Origin: Corallococcus terminator
Lineage (GTDB): Bacteria > Myxococcota > Myxococcia > Myxococcales > Myxococcaceae
DNA: 37,696 bases
Reading direction: 5' to 3'
Assembly: GCF_003611635.1 (NCBI RefSeq)
Contig: NZ_RAVZ01000051.1
Location: forward strand, 1 to 37,696
Shown: piece after piece, positions 26,439 through 35,298 of the stretch
How positions within the stretch are numbered: the stretch's first letter is position 1
Layout of the letters: every line of letters starts with the position of its first letter
The notes under the pieces: generated by a model
The model's input: only the letters and a program-made list of their open reading frames with translations
Told to the model about the DNA's origin: nothing
Database searches by the model: none
Program-made: the position numbers and the translations under genes

Positions 26439-27580
26439 GCGGCCTCCTTGCGCTGCTCTTCGATGAGCGCGTCCATGAAGCCATCCACCTCTTCCGGCGT
26501 GTTGTAGAAGTGCGGCGCCGCGCGCAGGAAGCCCCGGTGGCTGCAGATGAAGCCGCGCGCCACCAGCCGCTGCATCACGCTCACGTCGCCAGGGAAGCTC
26601 AGCGCCACGATGCCGCCGCGCTGGTGCGGCTCGCGCGGTGTCACCACGCGCAGGCCCGCTTCATCCGCGCGCGCCATCAGCCGCGACGTGAGCTTCAGCG
26701 AATGCTCGCGCACCGCCGTGATGCCCACGCCCTTCAAGAGGTCCAGCCCCGGCCGCGACAGCAGCACCATCAGCGGCGCGGGCGTGCCGCCCATCATCCG
26801 CCGCGCATCCGGTGCCCAGGCCTCCGCCGACTGGAAGGCCAGCGGCGACGCCCCGGCAAGCCACCCGGTGTCCGCGGGCCGCAGCGTGGGCAGCAGCTCC
26901 GGACGCACGTACATGAACGCGTACTCGGAGCCGCCCAGCCACTTGTGCGCGCCGCCCATGAGGAAGTCCACGTCCAGCGCGCGCACGTCCACCGGCACCG
27001 TGCCCACCGTCTGGTACGCATCCGTGGCGATGAGCGCCCCGGCCGCGTGCGCCGCCTTCGCCACGCGCGCGACATCCAGCAGCGCGCCGGTGGAGAACGC
27101 GGCGTGCGACACGCAGACCAGCCGCGTGCGCTCGTCGATGGCCGCCTCCAGCGCCGCCTCATCCACGCGGCCGTCGCGCGACGGCACCACCACCAGCTCC
27201 GCCCCATAGCGCGCGAAGCCCTTCCAGATGAAGGGCACCGTGGGGAACTCCAGGTCGGTGACGATGACGCGGCGGCGCTCGCCGCTGAAGTCCAGGCAGG
27301 TGCCCAGGCGCGACAGGTGCGCGCTCAGGTTCACGTCCAACGCCACGGACGCGGGCGGAGCGCCGATGAGGCCCGCCACCGCATCCGCGTAGCCCTGCAT
27401 CTGGGAAAGCCATCCATCCCAGACGGCGTCGCGCCACGTGCGCATCGTGGTCCAGTACTGCGCGAGCACTCCCTCCACGGCCCGGGGCATCGCCCCGGTG
27501 GAGTTGCTGTTGAGGTACGTGCAGGTCTCAAGCAGGGGATACTCCGCGCGCAGGGCCCCCGGGAGTACCCCCTCGATCAC
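26435..27580 (-). CDS. Kynureninase-like PLP enzyme (class V aminotransferase fold)
   Basis: A 381-residue PLP-dependent enzyme. Fold-type I marks: TYLNSNSTGAMP at the N-terminus, VIVTDLEFPTVPF near 106-118, CVSHAAFSTGALLD near 156-169, D187 in IATDAYQTVG binding the pyridine nitrogen and the Schiff-base Lys K213 in MGGAHKWLGG. The DAYQTVGTVPVDV and TGWLAGASPLAF segments are close to kynureninases, which split kynurenine into anthranilate and alanine; a cysteine-desulfurase or epimerase relative is the alternative. The location directly after a TDO-superfamily gene supports kynureninase-type activity. The GTG at 27580 overlaps the upstream stop as GTGA, with GAGGAG six bases before it. No formamidase gene for the intermediate step is in the window. 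Confidence 0.87.
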   Translation of the reverse strand: MIEGVLPGALRAEYPLLETCTYLNSNSTGAMPRAVEGVLAQYWTTMRTWRDAVWDGWLSQMQGYADAVAGLIGAPPASVALDVNLSAHLSRLGTCLDFSGERRRVIVTDLEFPTVPFIWKGFARYGAELVVVPSRDGRVDEAALEAAIDERTRLVCVSHAAFSTGALLDVARVAKAAHAAGALIATDAYQTVGTVPVDVRALDVDFLMGGAHKWLGGSEYAFMYVRPELLPTLRPADTGWLAGASPLAFQSAEAWAPDARRMMGGTPAPLMVLLSRPGLDLLKGVGITAVREHSLKLTSRLMARADEAGLRVVTPREPHQRGGIVALSFPGDVSVMQRLVARGFICSHRGFLRAAPHFYNTPEEVDGFMDALIEEQRKEAA

Positions 27581-28632
27581 GTCTGGCTCCTCAGCTCGTG
27601 GGGATGGGGATACGCCGCCGGCGCGCCGTGGGCGTGCATCGCGGTCGGTGCGGCGTGGGCGTGCATCGCGGCCGGCGCGGCATGGGCGTGCATCGCGGCC
27701 GGCGCGGCGTGGGCGTGCATCGCGGCCGCCGCGGCGTGGGCGTGCATCGCGGCCGCCGCGTCGTGGGCGTGCATCGCGGTCGGCATGGTGTGGCCGTGCA
27801 TCATCGGGCACCCGCCCCCGCGAGGCGCCGCGTGCGCGTCCGTCCCTCGCGACGCACCCGTCGCGTAGCCGCCCTCGCGCTTCCAGCCGTTGGTCATCTC
27901 CACGCGCACGTCCCACAGCGCGCGGAACAGCGGCAGGGTCATGCGCCCGGCCAGCACCTGCGTGGGCAGGCCATCCAGCGCCTTCACCGAACGGTCCACG
28001 CCGATGGTGCGGCGCACCAACTGGAAGTGCGCGAACAGCCAGCCCTGGAAGGCCTCATCCATGCTGACCAGGTTCTCACAGACGTGCTTCAGATCCTCGT
28101 GCCCCCCGGCCGTGTAGATCTGCATCAGCGTCACACCCCGGCGCTCCAGCATGCGCTCCAGGGAGGACTCCAGTCCCGTGGCCGCCAGCCGGAACGTGTT
28201 GTAGCCCGGCGACTCCTGCCCGCTGCCGTTGCCCAGGCTGCGGCGGATGACCTGGTACGCCTCCGGCGTCATCGTCTCCAGGATGGCCATCTCGGAGCTG
28301 ATGCACTGGAGGATGCGCTGCACCCGCGCCAGCCGAGCAACCACGGCCCACAGGGCGTCCCGGTCCAGCTCCGCCACCACTTCCACGATCTCCCGCGACG
28401 CCAGCTTCAGGTACAGCTCCTGGGACTGGTGGACGATCTGGAACATCAGCTCGTCGTGCGACACGCGCTCCGCTTCCGCGGACTGCAGGCCCAGCAGCGT
28501 CCCCGTGTGCAGGTAACGCTCGTAGTCCAGCTCTCCCTTGCCCACCCACTTCTTCAGCATCGGGTTGAAGAGCGGCTGAGTCAGCTCGTGCTTCAGTTTT
28601 TCCGCGTGGCTGTAATCAGTGGACATGAACAT
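27577..28632 (-). CDS. Divergent tryptophan 2,3-dioxygenase-superfamily enzyme, His-rich tail
   Basis: A 351-residue protein. Residues 1-250 are a helical heme-enzyme core of the tryptophan 2,3-dioxygenase family: YERYLHTGTLLGLQ (37-50), distal pocket F64 and H68 in FQIVHQSQELYLK, substrate-carboxylate pair Y126/R130 in ETMTPEAYQVIR, LGNGSGQES (133-141) and the proximal heme ligand H202 in AHFQLVRRTIG. The loop that normally reads GTGGSSG after this helix is missing; GVDRSVKALDGLP stands there, so the usual Thr binding the substrate amino group is absent. Residues 250-351 form an extra low-complexity tail with seven MHxH-type 9-residue repeats. Canonical enzymes convert tryptophan to N-formylkynurenine; relatives such as MarE do other oxidations. 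The ATG at 28632 follows GGAGG; 28626 is an alternative. First gene of a coupled operon. Confidence 0.9.
   Translation of the reverse strand: MFMSTDYSHAEKLKHELTQPLFNPMLKKWVGKGELDYERYLHTGTLLGLQSAEAERVSHDELMFQIVHQSQELYLKLASREIVEVVAELDRDALWAVVARLARVQRILQCISSEMAILETMTPEAYQVIRRSLGNGSGQESPGYNTFRLAATGLESSLERMLERRGVTLMQIYTAGGHEDLKHVCENLVSMDEAFQGWLFAHFQLVRRTIGVDRSVKALDGLPTQVLAGRMTLPLFRALWDVRVEMTNGWKREGGYATGASRGTDAHAAPRGGGCPMMHGHTMPTAMHAHDAAAAMHAHAAAAAMHAHAAPAAMHAHAAPAAMHAHAAPTAMHAHGAPAAYPHPHELRSQT
27613..27801 (-). repeat. 27-bp tandem repeat encoding MHAHxAxxA units
   Basis: Seven exact-period 27-bp units, with GTGCAT (plus strand) at 27634, 27661, 27688, 27715, 27742, 27769 and 27796, encode residues 278-340 of the TDO-like protein. 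In order the units are MHGHTMPTA, MHAHDAAAA, MHAHAAAAA, MHAHAAPAA twice, MHAHAAPTA and MHAHGAPAA. Each gives a Met and two His spaced HxH. Near-identical DNA suggests recent expansion by slippage. Confidence 0.95.
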
Positions 28633-28845: not shown

Positions 28846-29265
28846 TCACCCCTCAACAGGTGAGGGATTCCGGCCCGGCGTAGCGGGCCGGGGCTTCAGA
28901 CGCATCGCGTTGAGCTTCTGGGCCAGGTCAGCGCCCTGCACGCTCTTGGAGATGTAGCCGTCCGCGCCGGAGGCGATGGCCAGCGAGCGCAGCTTCGCCT
29001 CATCCGACGCGGAGTAGAGGATGAAGCGGGTGCCGGGGGGCGCGTACTGGCGCGCCAGCCCCACGACCTTGTCCCCCTTGAGGGCGGGGAAGTTCACGTC
29101 GATGAGCACGAAGTCCGGCTCGGACGCGCGCACGATGTTGGACACACCCAACGCGGACGTATGGGTCTGCACTTCGAACCCGTACGCGCTCAGCGAGCGC
29201 TGTACGAGGTCGAGCAGGTCCGGGTCGTCGTCCACCACAAGGACGCGCGGTTTTGGTTCAGCCAT
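28846..29265 (-). CDS. Single-domain response regulator after hybrid kinase
   Basis: A 139-residue stand-alone receiver. The acidic pocket is VVDDDPD, the phospho-acceptor D56 lies in LIDVNFPALKGDKV, the switch Ser in LYSASDEAKLR and the conserved Lys in GYISKS. The last 20 residues are Pro/Arg/Lys-rich and unstructured. It closely resembles the receiver at 18376-18780. The ATG at 29265 lies inside the end of the hybrid kinase gene (8-bp overlap), with GGGAG just upstream, so translation is coupled and the kinase is the obvious phospho-donor. It is the last gene of the cytochrome/FIST/kinase/receiver run. It has no DNA-binding domain, so the output is by protein contact. Confidence 0.92.
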   Translation of the reverse strand: MAEPKPRVLVVDDDPDLLDLVQRSLSAYGFEVQTHTSALGVSNIVRASEPDFVLIDVNFPALKGDKVVGLARQYAPPGTRFILYSASDEAKLRSLAIASGADGYISKSVQGADLAQKLNAMRLKPRPATPGRNPSPVEG

Positions 29266-32224
29266 GGCTTCTCCCTAGGTACTGACGAATCGTCTCGATC
29301 AACTGATCGCGATCCAGGGGCTTGGTGAGGTAGGCCGTGCAACCGGCCGCCTGCGCCTTGTCCTGGTATTCGCGCCCCGCGTGGGCGGTGACGGCGATGA
29401 CGGGCACGTTCTGCCCATCCGGCAACGCCCGGAGCCTGCGGGTGACTTCCCAGCCGTCGAGTCTCGGCAGGGACAAATCCATGAGGATGAGGTCCGGCAC
29501 GTCGGCGCGCGCGCGCTCCAACCCCTGCTCGCCGTCCTCCGCCTCGATGAGGTCATACAGCCCGCCCAGGTAGCGGCGGACGATGTCGCGGTTCTGCTCG
29601 CTGTCCTCCACGTACAGCACGCGGGGCAGCTTGCCGGCGCTCGCGGCGCGCTGGGACATGAGCAGGCCCTTGGCCTGGGAGATGACGTCCTCCAGGGCCG
29701 TGCCGCCCTTGCGCACGAAGCCGGCGAAGCCGTCGCGCAGGAGCGTCTCTTCTTCCGGGGTGAGCGTCTTGCCGGTGAGCACCACCACCGGCACTGACAG
29801 CTTCTCCGCGCGCAGCCGGCGCAGCACTTCGAAGCCGTCCAGGTTCGGCATCATCAGGTCTAGCACCACCAGGGACGGCGGCGACACGCGCGCCTTGAGC
29901 AGCGCGTCCTCGCCGTTGCGCGCCTCGTTGGTGGAGAAGCCCGCGCGGCGCAGGTTGCGGCTGACCAGCTCGCGCGTGGCCGCGTCGTCGTCCACCACCA
30001 GCACGTCGCCCGTGGCGGAGGTGGCGCCCGCGGAGGCGAGGCTCTTCTGCACCACCTCCACCAACCGCTCCGGCTCCACCGGCTTCACCAGGTACTCACA
30101 CGCGCCCAGGCTGAAGCCGCGCGCGCGCTGCTCCTCCACCGACACGAGGATGACCGGGATGGCGGCGAGGCTCGGCTCGCTCTTGAGCTGGCTCAACACC
30201 GACCAGCCGTCCATCCGGGGCAGGTGGATGTCCAGCAGGATGGCCTGTGGCTTGAGCTCGCGCGCCAGCTTCAGCGCGGCGATGCCGTCATCCGCCGTCA
30301 CGACCTTGAAGCCCGCGGGCTCGAGCTGGCCGGTGACGAGCTGCTGGATGAGCGGATCATCATCCACCACCAGCACCGTGCTGCCCGGCCGCGCCATGGG
30401 CGCGAGCTTCTGCGCCACGTCCTGGATGGGGACCAGCCGCTCCGTCGCATGCGGGCTGTTGGCGCCCACCGTGGTGGCCAGCACGTCCGGCAGCCGCACG
30501 GTGAAGGTGGAGCCCCGGCCCAGCGTGCTCGTCACGTCCACGGTGCCGCCCAGCACCCGCGTCAGCTCGCGCACGATGGCGAGCCCCAGCCCCGTGCCGC
30601 CCACCTTGCGCGTGGTGGAGCCGTCCACCTGGCGGAACTTCTCGAAGATGAAGGGAAGCTGGTCGGAGGGGATGCCCACGCCGGTGTCCTCCACCGTCAT
30701 CAGCATCTCACCGGAGCCCGCGGGCACCACCGTGAGGGCGACCTCGCCCGTGTCGGTGAACTTGGCCGCGTTGCTCAAGAGGTTGAGCATGATCTGCCGC
30801 AGCTTCAGCGCGTCCGTGCGCACCTCGGCCGCCTCCGCGTCCACGTGCACGGTGAGGGCGACGTCCTTGCCCTTCAGGTACTCCTTCACCGTGGCCATGC
30901 ACTCGTCGGCCAGCTCCTGCACGTCCACCGGTTCGGTGACGACCTCCACGCGGCCCGCTTCAATCTTGGACAGGTCCAGGATGTCGTTGATGAGCGCCAG
31001 CAGCGTCTTGGCGTTGGACTTCACCACGTTGAGGTCGCGCCGGCCGTGCGGCGTCAGGCGGTTGCCCTCCTCGCGCATCAGCAGGTCGCAGTAGCCGATG
31101 ATGCCGTTGAGCGGGGTGCGGATCTCATGGCTGAAGTTCGCCAGGAACTCGCTCTTGAGCCGCACGGCGCCTTCGGCCTCGCGCGCGCGCTCCTCCTCGT
31201 TGCGCTTGGCGACGGAGAGCTCCTGGGCCAGCCGGTCCAGGTCCTCGTTCTGCTGACGGATGATCTCCATCTGCAGCGCGCGCTGCTGGTAGCTCGCCAG
31301 GGAGCGGGCGGACACCGCGCGTGTCTTCTTGATCTCCTCCAGGCTGGCGGCCAACTGGAGGTTGGCGGCCTCCAGCTCCTCCTTGGAGGCGCGCAGCATG
31401 GCCTCGTTCTGCTTGCGCTCGGTGATGTCGTCGGTGACGCCCATCACGAAGCGCGCGATGCCGTGGTCGTCCACCAGCGGAATCTTGCGCGTGGCGAAGA
31501 TGCGGTCCTCGCCGTCGGCGCGGGCCACCTCCTCGAACGTCTTCATCTTCCGGGTCTCGAGGATCTCCGTGTCGATGGCGACGAACGAGTCCGCCTGGTC
31601 ATGCGGGAAGTAGTCGTGGTCCAGCTTCCCCAGCAGCCATTCCTTGGTGACCTTGAAGGCGTCCGCGAACGTCTTGTTGGCCACCACCAGCCGGCGCGTC
31701 TGGGCGTCCTTCACGAACAGCACGAAGGGCAGCGCGTCGATGATGTTGCTCAGCAGGTAGTTGGTCCGCTTGAGCTCCACGCCCGTCGCCTGGTGCTGGG
31801 CGCGCTCGGCGTGCAGGCGCAGCTCGCGCGCGACGATGAAGGGCAGGTGGCCGTAGCGGTCCTCGGTGACGTAGTCGAGCGCCCCGAGCCGCATGGCGGC
31901 ATCCAGCGTGTCCGGGTTCCAGGCGGGAGAGCTCACCACGAACGCGAGCGACAGCCCGCGCTGCTGCCACGCCGCGTGGACGGCGTCCCAGGACAGCCCC
32001 GGCAGCTCCGAGCCCAGGAGCACCAGCGCGTAGGGCCGCGCCAGCGCCTTCTCCAGGGCGTCCTGCGTGCACGCCTGCTCCAGCGTGAGCATGGAGAGGA
32101 TGTCCTCGCGCTCCAGTGCATCGCGCATCGCGCGCGTTTCGCGCTCGCTGCCCACCAGGAGCAGCGAAAGGGTGTACCCCAGCGGAGCTTCCGCGAGCGC
32201 CACATCGAACGGTTGGTTGGCCAT
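29258..32224 (-). CDS. Hybrid histidine kinase with three C-terminal receivers
   Basis: A 988-residue soluble hybrid kinase. Order: receiver-like N-terminal domain (about 18-140) in which the acceptor strand reads ALVLLGSELPG with no Asp, so it is a pseudo-receiver; PAS (about 154-280; VTDDITERKQNE at the end); coiled coil (about 280-350); HisKA with H366 in ANFSHEIRTPLNG; HATPase (about 475-595) with LLSNAAKFTD, DTGVGIPS and GGTGLGLAIV; then three full receivers (about 617-735, 742-860, 870-988) with acceptor Asp in LLDIHLPRMDG, VLDLMMPNLDG and LMDLSLPRLDG. This supports a multi-step phosphorelay ending in the overlapping stand-alone receiver. It starts 4 bp after the FIST gene stop. FIST proteins are known sensory partners of kinases, so ligand input probably comes from that neighbour. 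Confidence 0.94.
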   Translation of the reverse strand: MANQPFDVALAEAPLGYTLSLLLVGSERETRAMRDALEREDILSMLTLEQACTQDALEKALARPYALVLLGSELPGLSWDAVHAAWQQRGLSLAFVVSSPAWNPDTLDAAMRLGALDYVTEDRYGHLPFIVARELRLHAERAQHQATGVELKRTNYLLSNIIDALPFVLFVKDAQTRRLVVANKTFADAFKVTKEWLLGKLDHDYFPHDQADSFVAIDTEILETRKMKTFEEVARADGEDRIFATRKIPLVDDHGIARFVMGVTDDITERKQNEAMLRASKEELEAANLQLAASLEEIKKTRAVSARSLASYQQRALQMEIIRQQNEDLDRLAQELSVAKRNEEERAREAEGAVRLKSEFLANFSHEIRTPLNGIIGYCDLLMREEGNRLTPHGRRDLNVVKSNAKTLLALINDILDLSKIEAGRVEVVTEPVDVQELADECMATVKEYLKGKDVALTVHVDAEAAEVRTDALKLRQIMLNLLSNAAKFTDTGEVALTVVPAGSGEMLMTVEDTGVGIPSDQLPFIFEKFRQVDGSTTRKVGGTGLGLAIVRELTRVLGGTVDVTSTLGRGSTFTVRLPDVLATTVGANSPHATERLVPIQDVAQKLAPMARPGSTVLVVDDDPLIQQLVTGQLEPAGFKVVTADDGIAALKLARELKPQAILLDIHLPRMDGWSVLSQLKSEPSLAAIPVILVSVEEQRARGFSLGACEYLVKPVEPERLVEVVQKSLASAGATSATGDVLVVDDDAATRELVSRNLRRAGFSTNEARNGEDALLKARVSPPSLVVLDLMMPNLDGFEVLRRLRAEKLSVPVVVLTGKTLTPEEETLLRDGFAGFVRKGGTALEDVISQAKGLLMSQRAASAGKLPRVLYVEDSEQNRDIVRRYLGGLYDLIEAEDGEQGLERARADVPDLILMDLSLPRLDGWEVTRRLRALPDGQNVPVIAVTAHAGREYQDKAQAAGCTAYLTKPLDRDQLIETIRQYLGRSHG

Positions 32225-32228
32225 GTGT

Positions 32229-33389
32229 CTAGTTGGAACCGAACGCCAGCACGGTCAGCGTGGTGTTGATGTGGAAGCCTGAGTAGATCTCGAACTGCAC
32301 GTTCATCCCAGCAGCGGACGGTGCGAGCTTCAGGGCTTCGGAGAGCTGGGGCACCACGCCTGTCGCGTTCGCGTACCACATGCGTCCGCTGCAGTGGAAC
32401 AGGAGGGCGGCCTGGGGGTTCTGGACCCGCCTGGGCAGCTCGTCGGCGAAGAAGTCGCGCGTCATACCCGCCAGGTCGCCTGCCTTCATCAAATCCAGCT
32501 CGCTTCCCTCCTCCAGCAGGTTGGCGAACAGGATGGAGCCGTCCTCCAGGGGCCGCCACGCGGCGCGGATGAAGTACTCGCGGCCCACCTTCAGCGCGGT
32601 GGGGCGCACGGCGAAGCCCTTGGGCTTGCCGAACTCCAGCTCGTCCGGGGTGACGCCCAGGATTTCGGCGTAGCGCTTGGCGGCCGGGAAACCGTCGATT
32701 TCGAGCGCGCGCGTGTGCGTCTCATCCACCTTGGTGATGGTGAGCCGCTGGCCGGTGGGCACGTACCAATGCGAGCGCAGCGCGGCCCAGGGTGCGTTCG
32801 TCTTGAAGAGGGCCACGAGCACGCCGTCGCCGGCCACTTCGCCATCCACGTGGATGAGCGCGGACTGGCGCGAGGGGTCCGGCTCCGAGTCGCTGGCGCC
32901 GCCGCCCACCAGCACCAGCGTCTGGTTCTTCTCCAGGATGCCCAGCAGCAGCTCTTCTTTTTTGTAGCGGAAGCCGTCGTCGATGACGAGGCCCACGTAC
33001 CGGCGCGCGTCCAGGTCCTGCTGGCGCACGCCCAGCTCCTCGCACGCGCGCTTGATGGCCTGGGCGCCCGCGGCGATGGCGTCGCCGGTCAGGCCGCTGC
33101 CCAGGCCCAGGCCCACCTCGAAGTCGCCGGAGAGAGCGCCCAGCACCACGCTGTTGGTGTGGATGCCGTTGTTGTCCAGCTCCCCGGCGGTGGTGGCGCC
33201 CACCAGCCGGGTGTCCTTGGGGAGCCGCTCACGCACCGCGCGGTTGAGCGCGCGCTGGTCACGCTGACGGGAGGCGAAGAGCGTGACCAGCTTCGGCGGG
33301 GGGCCGTGGAGCTGTCTTAGGAGGTCCTCCGCCGCAGCGACTGGATCCGTGAGCGTGGAGCGAGCCGTCTGCATCTTCACGTTGGCCAT
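32229..33389 (-). CDS. FIST domain sensory protein
   Basis: A 386-residue cytosolic protein with FIST_N (about 20-220) and FIST_C (about 225-370). Typical stretches are KLVTLFASRQRDQRALNRAV, RLVGATTAGEL, GLVIDDGFRYKKEELLLG, LVGGGASD and, in the C-terminal half, ALLFHCSGRMWYANA. FIST domains are predicted small-ligand sensors, proposed to bind amino-acid-like molecules, and commonly occur next to kinases. The ATG at 33389 is preceded by AAGG at six bases. The hybrid kinase gene starts 4 bp after its stop and the multiheme lipoprotein gene ends 34 bp before its start, so all are probably one transcript. Some FIST proteins bind heme and respond to nitric oxide (NosP type); with a cytochrome neighbour, heme binding here is possible but not shown. 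Confidence 0.9.
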   Translation of the reverse strand: MANVKMQTARSTLTDPVAAAEDLLRQLHGPPPKLVTLFASRQRDQRALNRAVRERLPKDTRLVGATTAGELDNNGIHTNSVVLGALSGDFEVGLGLGSGLTGDAIAAGAQAIKRACEELGVRQQDLDARRYVGLVIDDGFRYKKEELLLGILEKNQTLVLVGGGASDSEPDPSRQSALIHVDGEVAGDGVLVALFKTNAPWAALRSHWYVPTGQRLTITKVDETHTRALEIDGFPAAKRYAEILGVTPDELEFGKPKGFAVRPTALKVGREYFIRAAWRPLEDGSILFANLLEEGSELDLMKAGDLAGMTRDFFADELPRRVQNPQAALLFHCSGRMWYANATGVVPQLSEALKLAPSAAGMNVQFEIYSGFHINTTLTVLAFGSN

Positions 33390-33423
33390 GGAGGACCTTC
33401 CCTTGCGCCCCGGGCTTGGGCGG

Positions 33424-35298
33424 CTAGAGGCCGCTGCCCGGGTGTGTCTTGTGACAACTGCCGGTGCACTGCTGGAACGATTCGCGACCGCCGCCGACGT
33501 ACATGCTTTCGATGGGGCCGAAGGACTTCACGTGGCTCTCAGGATAGCTCTTGTGGCACGACAGGCAGGCGGCCTTGCTGGTGCGCTGCGTGGTCTCCTT
33601 GTCCAGGTGGCAGGAGGAGCACTTCTCCAGGGGCGCGTCGAAGCGGTTGGAGCGCGAGTGGATGAAGTGCGTGCGCACGAAGATGGGGCCTTCCAGTTCG
33701 AAGCCCAGCGGAGCATGGCACGACGCGCACGCGGCGCGGTTGTCGTTTCCATGCAGCACGGTGCCCAGCTCGCCGCCCTTGCTGTGGCAGCTATTGCAGG
33801 GCCCGGTGGTCAGCCTGGCCTCGGTGTGGGTCTTGGTACCCACCTGGATTTCAATGGTGCGCGAACCGGGGATGTCCTCACCCAGGAACACGCGGCGGCT
33901 CTTGGCCGTGACCAGGTAGGTGCCCGGCTTCGCGTCCGCGGGCAGCTTGTAGGTCCAGGTGTCGCTGACGGGCGCGTCCCAGCGGCCTTCATTGGGGAAG
34001 AAGGCGCCGCCGAAGAGCTTGTTGGCGGAGGGGAAGATCTTGAACTGCGCGTACACGCCGTCTCGCGCCGGGGTGGCGAGGGTCTGCACGTCCTGGGAGT
34101 CGTCGAGGAACGCCTCCAGGTCGATGATGGTCCGGATGGGCTTGATGTCCTGCGCAGGCCCGATGAGCTGCGTCATCATCATCCGTTCACGGTGCTTGCG
34201 GCGGTAGTACGTGGCGGTCGGGTCGAAGAAGGCCTGATAGTACTGGATCCCGGCGGGGTTGCCGGGAGCGCCCGGCAGTGCGACCTCACTGTAGAGTGGA
34301 AGGCTGCCGGCGGGGTGCAGCGGCTTGCCCTTCCCGTCCTTCAGGGTCATCTGGAAGGTGACATCCGACCCGGGGGCGTACGTGCCGTCCTTGCGGGGCG
34401 CCGTCAGCGCCTTGATGTCGATGCCGAACCCATAGTCGTACGCGGGCGAGTTCACCTGCGTGACGGGGATGTAGTAGGGCGCGAACGGACGCAGGCTCCA
34501 GCGCAGGCGCAGGCCCTTCGTCTGGGACGTGAAGGTGAGCGTCTGCTTCTTCGCGTGGTCGTACGCGTTGCGCAGCTCCACCAGCGCCTCCTCCTCGAAG
34601 GCCCTGGCACCCGTACAGTCCGTGAGGCTGCGACAGTCGCGCGCCCACTGGATGGCGCGCAGACGGCGGATGAAGAAGTCGTCACGCTCCGTGCGGCGCG
34701 ACTCCTCGCTGCCGATGTTCAGGAGCACCGGCGGCCCGGTGAGGATGCCGCGCGCGTCGACCGGCTCCACGGTGAAGAGGCTGGTCACCTTCATCCAGGC
34801 CGCGTCGCGGTAGAACCGGCGGCGGGTGAAGGTGCCGTCCGCGTTGGAGAGGCCGACAAACTCCTCGTCCTCCAGGCGCACACCGGCCCACCCGGCGGCC
34901 AGGAAGTCGCTGTTCTGGCGCAGGCCGTTCACGCCTTCGTCCACGGTGGCGTTGATGGAGGCGCGCAGGTCGATCTGGTTCACCCAGAAGGTCTGCCCGG
35001 CCTTCACCTTCAGGGGCACGCCCTTGCCGTTGTCCACTTCCAGGGCCAGGCCCACCGGCGTCGCTTTGTTGCCGCCACCCCAGCGAGCCTCCTCGTCCAT
35101 CACCGCCTGGGACTGGGACGAAAGCTCCAGCGGGGCGTCCTGCTCCAGGGAGGCGGAGGCCTCAAAACCCGAAGTGTCCTGTCCACCGCACGCCAGCGCC
35201 AGGCCCGTCATCGCTGCCAGCAAGCTCGCGCGGCCCGCGGAACCCACGCGGGGGGAAGTGCGAGTACACCGCGCCCTGAAAGCTCCAACTGCCACCAT
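33424..35298 (-). CDS. Multiheme c-type cytochrome lipoprotein
   Basis: A 624-residue exported protein. The N-terminus has Arg-rich residues 8-23, a hydrophobic stretch ASLLAAMTGLALA and a lipobox-like ALAC with C37 as the probable lipidated residue. Residues about 75-490 form a large beta-rich domain of unknown fold, Lys-rich and Tyr-rich. The last 125 residues carry heme-binding motifs CNSCH (501-505), CASCH (524-528), CSSCH (560-564), CLSCH (578-582) and CTGSCH (611-616); the last has three residues between the cysteines. Extra His residues between them could be sixth ligands. The layout resembles outer-surface electron-transfer cytochromes of the OmcA/MtrC style, though smaller. The ATG at 35298 follows GAGGAG. 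It heads the FIST/kinase/receiver run, which suggests respiratory or redox control. Confidence 0.9.
   Translation of the reverse strand: MVAVGAFRARCTRTSPRVGSAGRASLLAAMTGLALACGGQDTSGFEASASLEQDAPLELSSQSQAVMDEEARWGGGNKATPVGLALEVDNGKGVPLKVKAGQTFWVNQIDLRASINATVDEGVNGLRQNSDFLAAGWAGVRLEDEEFVGLSNADGTFTRRRFYRDAAWMKVTSLFTVEPVDARGILTGPPVLLNIGSEESRRTERDDFFIRRLRAIQWARDCRSLTDCTGARAFEEEALVELRNAYDHAKKQTLTFTSQTKGLRLRWSLRPFAPYYIPVTQVNSPAYDYGFGIDIKALTAPRKDGTYAPGSDVTFQMTLKDGKGKPLHPAGSLPLYSEVALPGAPGNPAGIQYYQAFFDPTATYYRRKHRERMMMTQLIGPAQDIKPIRTIIDLEAFLDDSQDVQTLATPARDGVYAQFKIFPSANKLFGGAFFPNEGRWDAPVSDTWTYKLPADAKPGTYLVTAKSRRVFLGEDIPGSRTIEIQVGTKTHTEARLTTGPCNSCHSKGGELGTVLHGNDNRAACASCHAPLGFELEGPIFVRTHFIHSRSNRFDAPLEKCSSCHLDKETTQRTSKAACLSCHKSYPESHVKSFGPIESMYVGGGRESFQQCTGSCHKTHPGSGL

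Follow-up and report, generated by a model that had tools for sequence, protein, structure and literature searches.

A short tryptophan dioxygenase-family oxygenase encoded with a kynureninase-like enzyme and an O-methyltransferase in Corallococcus terminator

Introduction

Methyl-3-hydroxyanthranilate modules of the SibL and actinomycin type comprise a tryptophan 2,3-dioxygenase (TDO), a kynureninase and a PF00891-type methyltransferase. MarE, from the maremycin producer Streptomyces sp. B9173 (PDB 9CA3 and 8VYY), is a TDO-type heme enzyme in which, according to the excerpted text of its structural description, a single helix replaces the alphaF/alphaG region; a reactive Cys280 lies near the end of its 284 residues, and its C-terminus lies beside a neighbouring active site (PMC11904535). 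The MarE papers address why a TDO-type heme enzyme halts after one oxygen, and the SLGGR loop, as opposed to the GTGGS loop of TDOs, has been implicated. In other systems a TDO homologue is paired with an O-methyltransferase: OhmK and OhmJ are each described as required for formation of 4-methoxy-L-tryptophan in ohmyungsamycin (PMC6920865), and homologous pairs are Arg5/Arg4 for the myxobacterial argyrin, the ecumicin pair and ZelE/ZelD, as far as the excerpts of these reports go (PMC6920865; PMC8631618; PMC6902895).

The window analysed here, a stretch of 37,696 nucleotides of C. terminator (contig NZ_RAVZ01000051.1), contains a gene for a short TDO homologue, which is the first of three overlapping genes in a minus-strand operon that also encodes a pyridoxal phosphate (PLP) enzyme and an O-methyltransferase (Table 1). 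This set resembles the modules of the SibL and actinomycin type, except that no kynurenine 3-monooxygenase or formamidase is recognised within the cassette. A search of the open-access literature, with subscription journals largely outside its reach, found among the papers listed no description of the short branch to which the oxygenase belongs or of the cassette.

Table 1. Positions of the oxygenase, its residues, its partner genes and the upstream genes within the window
Feature	Positions	Strand	Remarks
Short TDO-type heme oxygenase gene, 351 aa	27577-28632	minus	PF03301; core residues 1-254 at 27871-28632
His68, equivalent of the distal His (MarE His55)	28429-28431	minus	alignments; PMC11904535 (excerpted text)
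Tyr126 and Arg130, equivalents of the substrate-carboxylate pair	28243-28257	minus	alignments
Residues 135-145, NGSGQESPGYN	28198-28230	minus	SPG in common with MarE TGLDSPGYRN; canonical TDOs have SGFQS
His202, equivalent of the proximal heme ligand (MarE His201)	28027-28029	minus	alignments; PMC11904535 (excerpted text)
Residues 211-223, GVDRSVKALDGLP, in place of the GTGGS loop	27964-28002	minus	ALDGL (218-222), compared with SLGGR in MarE
C-terminal tail, residues 255-351, ~97 aa	27580-27870	minus	Cys-Pro motif, then His-rich repeats
Cys275-Pro276 motif	27805-27810	minus	in the tail
27-nt repeat, seven in-frame copies encoding MHAHAAPAA-like units	27613-27802	minus	in the His-rich tail
Class V PLP enzyme, kynureninase/SufS-like, 381 aa	26435-27580	minus	GTG start overlaps the oxygenase stop
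SAM methyltransferase, PF00891 O-methyltransferase family, 357 aa	25365-26438	minus	overlaps the PLP enzyme stop by 4 nt
Receiver protein	28846-29265	minus	upstream context gene
Hybrid histidine kinase	29258-32224	minus	upstream context gene
FIST/NosP-like protein	32229-33389	minus	upstream context gene
Multihaem cytochrome-like protein	33424-35298	minus	upstream context gene

The oxygenase as a member of a short TDO branch

The oxygenase scores 71.7 bits against the Pfam profile PF03301, above the gathering cut-off of 34.9, and 111.6 bits against the NCBIfam TDO equivalog TIGR03036, far below the cut-off of 390.7, by which strict membership of the canonical TDOs is rejected. In common with canonical enzymes such as those of Xanthomonas campestris and human, it has the distal His, the Tyr/Arg pair, the proximal His and a PASG-type loop Ser; unlike them, it lacks GTGGS, and about 50 residues corresponding to the TDO alphaF/alphaG region are absent between Arg130 and His202 in the alignments. 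The original prediction named His68, Tyr126, Arg130 and His202 and reported the replacement of GTGGS; these residues are all invariant across 54 aligned relatives (Tyr126 is nearly invariant in a smaller alignment of 15), and the replacement loop is confirmed (Table 1). The minus strand, the absent residues between Arg130 and His202, the C-terminal tail and the operon go beyond that prediction. The nearest named relative is in C. praedator (97% over the core), and the oxygenase is present in 56 of the 96 genomes of the Myxococcaceae, the family of the window.

The AlphaFold2 model of the core was made with 54 sequences (pLDDT 91.4, pTM 0.86) and has one helix, at residues 142-165, where alphaF/alphaG would stand. 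The best match in a fold search with this model is MarE 9ca3 (Z 23.5, rmsd 2.4 over 233 residues, 23% identity), followed by MarE 8vyy (Z 22.7), X. campestris TDO (up to 21.0), human TDO (up to 17.4), IDO (13.3) and PrnB (12.8). The modelled core has the helix-bundle fold of the HDAO superfamily (TDO/IDO/PrnB/MarE). SfmD and TyrH are not among the fold matches listed for the core model, which is uninformative either way.

In a first tree of 58 rows, for which 12 short-type rows, near-duplicates among them, had been left out, 16 canonical TDOs are split at 100/100 from a short branch that holds four MarE-like Streptomyces proteins; these four were found in 4 of 246 genomes by use of an 83-residue stretch of MarE as query, and one of them, L146, carries SLGGR. 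In a second tree of 71 rows, from which the loop columns were excluded, the short branch is again recovered (100/98). Group C, made up of 13 actinobacterial rows (100/96), is placed there, with moderate values (81/84), as the sister of the window's own clade A together with a broad bacterial group B and MarE. These 13 rows represent 13 of 18 group C regions, of which L173 and L189 probably come from the same organism. Group B is not recovered as a single clade, and the exact position of MarE is uncertain because the branch that leads to its rows is very long (3.7 changes per column). The comparison with MarE drawn originally is thereby borne out in the fold, the absent helices and the tree branch, and the placement within the TDO/MarE family that had been called for sets the protein apart from canonical TDOs. 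Judging from the sequence and the model, the protein is a member of a short branch with MarE architecture, with a heme predicted to be His-ligated.

Likeness to MarE extends to the SPG motif and to a Leu at the TDO Thr position. MarE differs in having Leu114 at the position of the TDO Tyr (Tyr126 here), DATG for NGSG and SLGGR for ALDGL, with the Leu and the second Gly of the loop in common; it also has a longer loop insert, uses beta-methyl-tryptophan and belongs to a different gene cluster. Strict membership of the MarE type is rejected on account of Tyr126 and NGSG. Group B (Acidobacteria, Shewanella, Rhizobium, cyanobacteria and others) has the same architecture and likewise carries Leu where TDOs have Thr; its motif reads GSGQ[ED]SPG, and a class V PLP gene is often nearby, but it lacks the long tail and has SLKG instead of ALDG.

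The substrate loop

The ALDG loop is kept in all 17 clade-A rows, and Leu219 and Gly221 are kept in these as well as in all 21 group B rows, so that the loop is neither a chance feature nor a sequencing error; a frameshift or chance origin was rejected on the grounds of this conservation, which extends across genera. The different loop follows from membership of a large, little-described "short" TDO branch, whose members provide a natural series on one architecture: GT[KQ]G in group C (Gly-Thr in 12 of 13 rows, Gly-Val in one), SLKG in group B (21/21), SL.G in the MarE-like rows (Ser-Leu in three, Ser-Met in one) and ALDG in clade A. The residue preceding Leu219 is Ala throughout clade A (17/17) and Ser in group B and the MarE-like rows; position 224 in clade A, whose Thr might stand in for that of the canonical loop, is Thr in 14 of 17 rows, Ser in one and Ala in two. 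Leu219 occupies the TDO Thr position according to the published MarE/TDO superposition of SLGGR on GTGGS, whereas a free MAFFT alignment puts Ala218 under the canonical Thr, one residue out of register. The register with Leu219 is preferred in view of the superposition and of the group C sequence GT[KQ]G, and under it the canonical Thr would be lost alike in clade A, group B and MarE.

The suggestion made originally, that the altered loop may indicate a modified tryptophan as substrate or a chemistry other than dioxygenation, found no support from the loop by itself. In the 22 group B genomes searched (some of them MAGs, with completeness not reported), the short protein with its Leu loop is the sole PF03301 member in every case; IDO is absent from 20, and kynureninase exceeds the curated cut-off in two (G090 and G091), with two more just below. 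In addition, the excerpted text of a study of loop exchange states that human TDO whose GTGGS was exchanged for SLGGS forms about 95% N-formylkynurenine from L-tryptophan and that the dioxygenated product of MarE predominates without ascorbate (PMC12312684). The group B genomes and the published loop swaps make the loop alone weak evidence for new chemistry.

Other active-site residues point in the same direction. All 17 clade-A rows, and group B too, retain Tyr126 and Ser137, whereas the MarE-like rows have Leu (three) or Phe (one) at position 126 and Thr for Ser137. The TDO-like residues of the active site, Tyr126 in particular, favour L-tryptophan as the substrate of clade A. For this reason it is quite improbable that the oxygenase behaves like MarE and, governed by a reductant, converts tryptophan or one of its modified forms to a 2-oxindole or a C3-hydroxylated (pyrroloindoline) compound. 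Such an activity would agree with MarE being the closest fold with the same helices missing, with the Leu at the Thr position in 17/17 rows, with the nesting of MarE in the short branch and with the Cys-Pro tail of the MarE-like L146 protein; yet the placement of MarE is weak for the reason given above, and MarE itself is mainly a dioxygenase when ascorbate is not supplied.

The three-gene cassette and its distribution

The cassette recurs in myxobacteria and actinobacteria. Among 36 clade-A loci, a relative of the methyltransferase is near the oxygenase gene in 35 and a relative of the PLP enzyme in 24, a count in which the L069 sequence stops inside the PLP gene. The 20 Myxococcus-type (g41) and g12 genomes searched all retain the oxygenase, but in none of them does a PLP match exceed 34% identity; a match of 43% was obtained in one additional genome, G636. 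PLP genes occur at 17 of 44 group B loci, not always adjacent, and no relative of the window methyltransferase was found in the neighbourhoods of groups B and C that were scanned.

The best solved relative of the PLP enzyme is the kynureninase of Pseudomonas fluorescens (118 bits). Its Lys aligns with the kynureninase Lys, and at the GWF[GS]H motif it has GWLAG, the His being lost in clade A; its score against the kynureninase model TIGR01814 is 99.5 bits (cut-off 246.4), and none of the curated cut-offs listed for it is reached. Solved structures distantly related to the window methyltransferase include SibL; in the plasmid collection the methyltransferase has no match. Elsewhere in the genome of the window there are a canonical TDO (a frame with GTGGSSG) and a canonical kynureninase (448 bits), and no PF04199 formamidase was found there. 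A scan for promoters and terminators returned none. A match on an Embleya plasmid is a canonical TDO, and in two plasmid records group B genes lie beside Lrp/AsnC regulators.

In the 18 group C regions scanned, a PLP gene is present in 16 (all except L185 and L196), and a second, TDO-like protein of ~410 aa in 17. There, tblastn detected an FAD monooxygenase in 14 regions and, in 15, a cyclase of PF04199, the kynurenine-formamidase family; domains were named on L167 only.

The regions L167-L174 and L189-L195 share a conserved cluster of the short TDO with GT[KQ]G, the class V PLP enzyme, the ~410-aa protein, the FAD monooxygenase and the PF04199 cyclase. The ~410-aa protein has a GTGYTEG loop and apparently lacks a distal His at the usual place. 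On a Micromonospora zamorensis plasmid (L186, NZ_CP107937.1), genes for a nitric oxide synthase and a globin-domain protein lie upstream of the short TDO, PLP and TDO-like genes, neighbours that could possibly relate to nitration or NO chemistry. On a Streptomyces plasmid (L185, NZ_CP108701.1), the long TDO-like protein and a short TDO are both encoded within an NRPS cluster.

Candidate reactions of the cassette

That the oxygenase shares an operon with a methyltransferase and a kynureninase-like enzyme suggests a pathway devoted to the modification of tryptophan. The reading we favour, at about even odds, is a pathway of cleavage and methylation in which L-tryptophan is oxidised, probably to N-formylkynurenine. 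The oxygenase would bind L-tryptophan in a TDO-like pocket and open the indole ring, with N-formylkynurenine or a closely similar compound as the product; side-chain cleavage by the kynureninase-like PLP enzyme would follow, and the methyltransferase would methylate the resulting aromatic product, the order of these steps and the nature of the methylated product being themselves predicted. The oxygenase would thus catalyse the first step of a biosynthetic cassette that exists alongside the genome's canonical TDO and kynureninase.

Ring opening is favoured by the core fold and the TDO-like active site of clade A, by the class V PLP partner that accompanies the short TDO in all three groups, including 16 of 18 group C regions, by the cyclase and FAD monooxygenase of group C and by the group B genomes in which the short protein is the sole PF03301 member, most of them without IDO and two with a kynureninase. 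It also agrees with the kynureninase relationship of the PLP enzyme and with the product of the SLGGS human TDO. What speaks most strongly against it is the retention of the methyltransferase where the PLP gene is lost (35/36 compared with 24/36, and 20 genomes with no PLP match above 34% identity), together with the lack of a hydroxyl for methylation in N-formylkynurenine. Given this retention, the substrate of the methyltransferase may be the immediate product of the oxygenase. The missing formamidase, the low kynureninase score and lost His of the PLP enzyme, and the Ala before Leu219 of clade A where group B and the MarE-like rows have Ser, also count against ring opening; and the canonical TDO and kynureninase already present in the genome raise the question of why a second route should be kept.

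This retention of the methyltransferase fits the precedent of OhmK/OhmJ and Arg5/Arg4. It is possible, though on balance doubtful, that the oxygenase is a hydroxylase that introduces one oxygen into L-tryptophan, for example at C4, and that the methyltransferase caps the hydroxyl to give a methoxytryptophan, with the PLP enzyme, where present, acting later. The oxygenase and methyltransferase form the most conserved core of the cassette, close PLP orthologues are missing in the Myxococcus-type and g12 genomes, and the known pairs, in which the TDO homologue likewise adjoins an O-methyltransferase gene, come from the same phyla, i.e., myxobacteria and actinobacteria. Those pairs are sited in NRPS clusters, whereas motif scans of ~8 kb detected NRPS motifs in none of the 18 clade-A loci L051-L068 and in none of the further clade-A loci scanned, by which an NRPS cluster around clade A is rejected. 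The PLP gene is an addition relative to the known pairs and is shared with groups B and C, in whose scanned neighbourhoods the methyltransferase has no relative; and the likeness of clade A to OhmK, Arg5, Ecu2 and ZelE is drawn from the gene arrangement in their descriptions, any common descent being putative.

Redundant tryptophan dioxygenation for amino-acid catabolism, with the methyltransferase as a bystander, would suit the TDO-like active site and the many relatives with no other PF03301 protein beside them in the genome. Such a role is highly improbable in view of the canonical TDO and kynureninase already encoded here, the overlapping genes in the window and the presence of the methyltransferase with the oxygenase gene at 35 of 36 loci in two phyla.

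The C-terminal tail and upstream genes

Beyond the core, Myxococcaceae tails contain at least one Cys-Pro in all 20 loci compared (L034-L050, L052, L055 and L058). Cys-Pro is absent from Sorangium L051, Archangium L053, Hyalangium L054 and the actinobacterial rows listed, and occurs once in Nannocystis L060. The MarE-like L146 protein ends in GSGCPVTG, resembling the Myxococcaceae tails, and L147-L149 have no Cys-Pro. In MarE, too, a reactive Cys lies near the C-terminus, which is close to a neighbouring active site. We infer that the Cys-Pro tail may have a heme or redox role. The His-rich part is highly variable in length, extending 33 to 280 aa past the core in Corallococcus species, and is expanded by the 27-nt repeat.

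The upstream genes (28846-35298) are given as context, their membership of the cassette not being shown. The NosP-like FIST, kinase, receiver and cytochrome genes could possibly exert NO- or redox-linked control. Among the Myxococcaceae loci, genes for FIST and cytochrome proteins are found repeatedly. A record titled Comamonas sp. KCTC 72670 (L044, BNCN01000008.1) carries the full Myxococcaceae syntenic block, and is likely a mislabelled or contaminated assembly because the neighbourhood is myxobacterial.

Implications

The three-gene cassette represents a tryptophan pathway that is not yet assigned. In the loop-free tree, MarE stands among proteins that already have Leu for Thr, many of which are the sole PF03301 member of their genome, suggesting that MarE may have inherited its loop and not invented it. 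The natural loop series and this position of MarE make the loop hypothesis directly testable.

It is also conceivable, if rather unlikely, that clade A is a distinct type of oxygenase: the ALDG loop, set in a pocket that in other respects resembles that of TDO, would make it a tryptophan mono-oxygenase coupled to the O-methyltransferase and the kynureninase-like enzyme of its cassette, and in Myxococcaceae the Cys-Pro/His-rich tail would serve as a heme or redox regulator. If so, clade A would represent a widespread, NRPS-free pathway of tryptophan modification.
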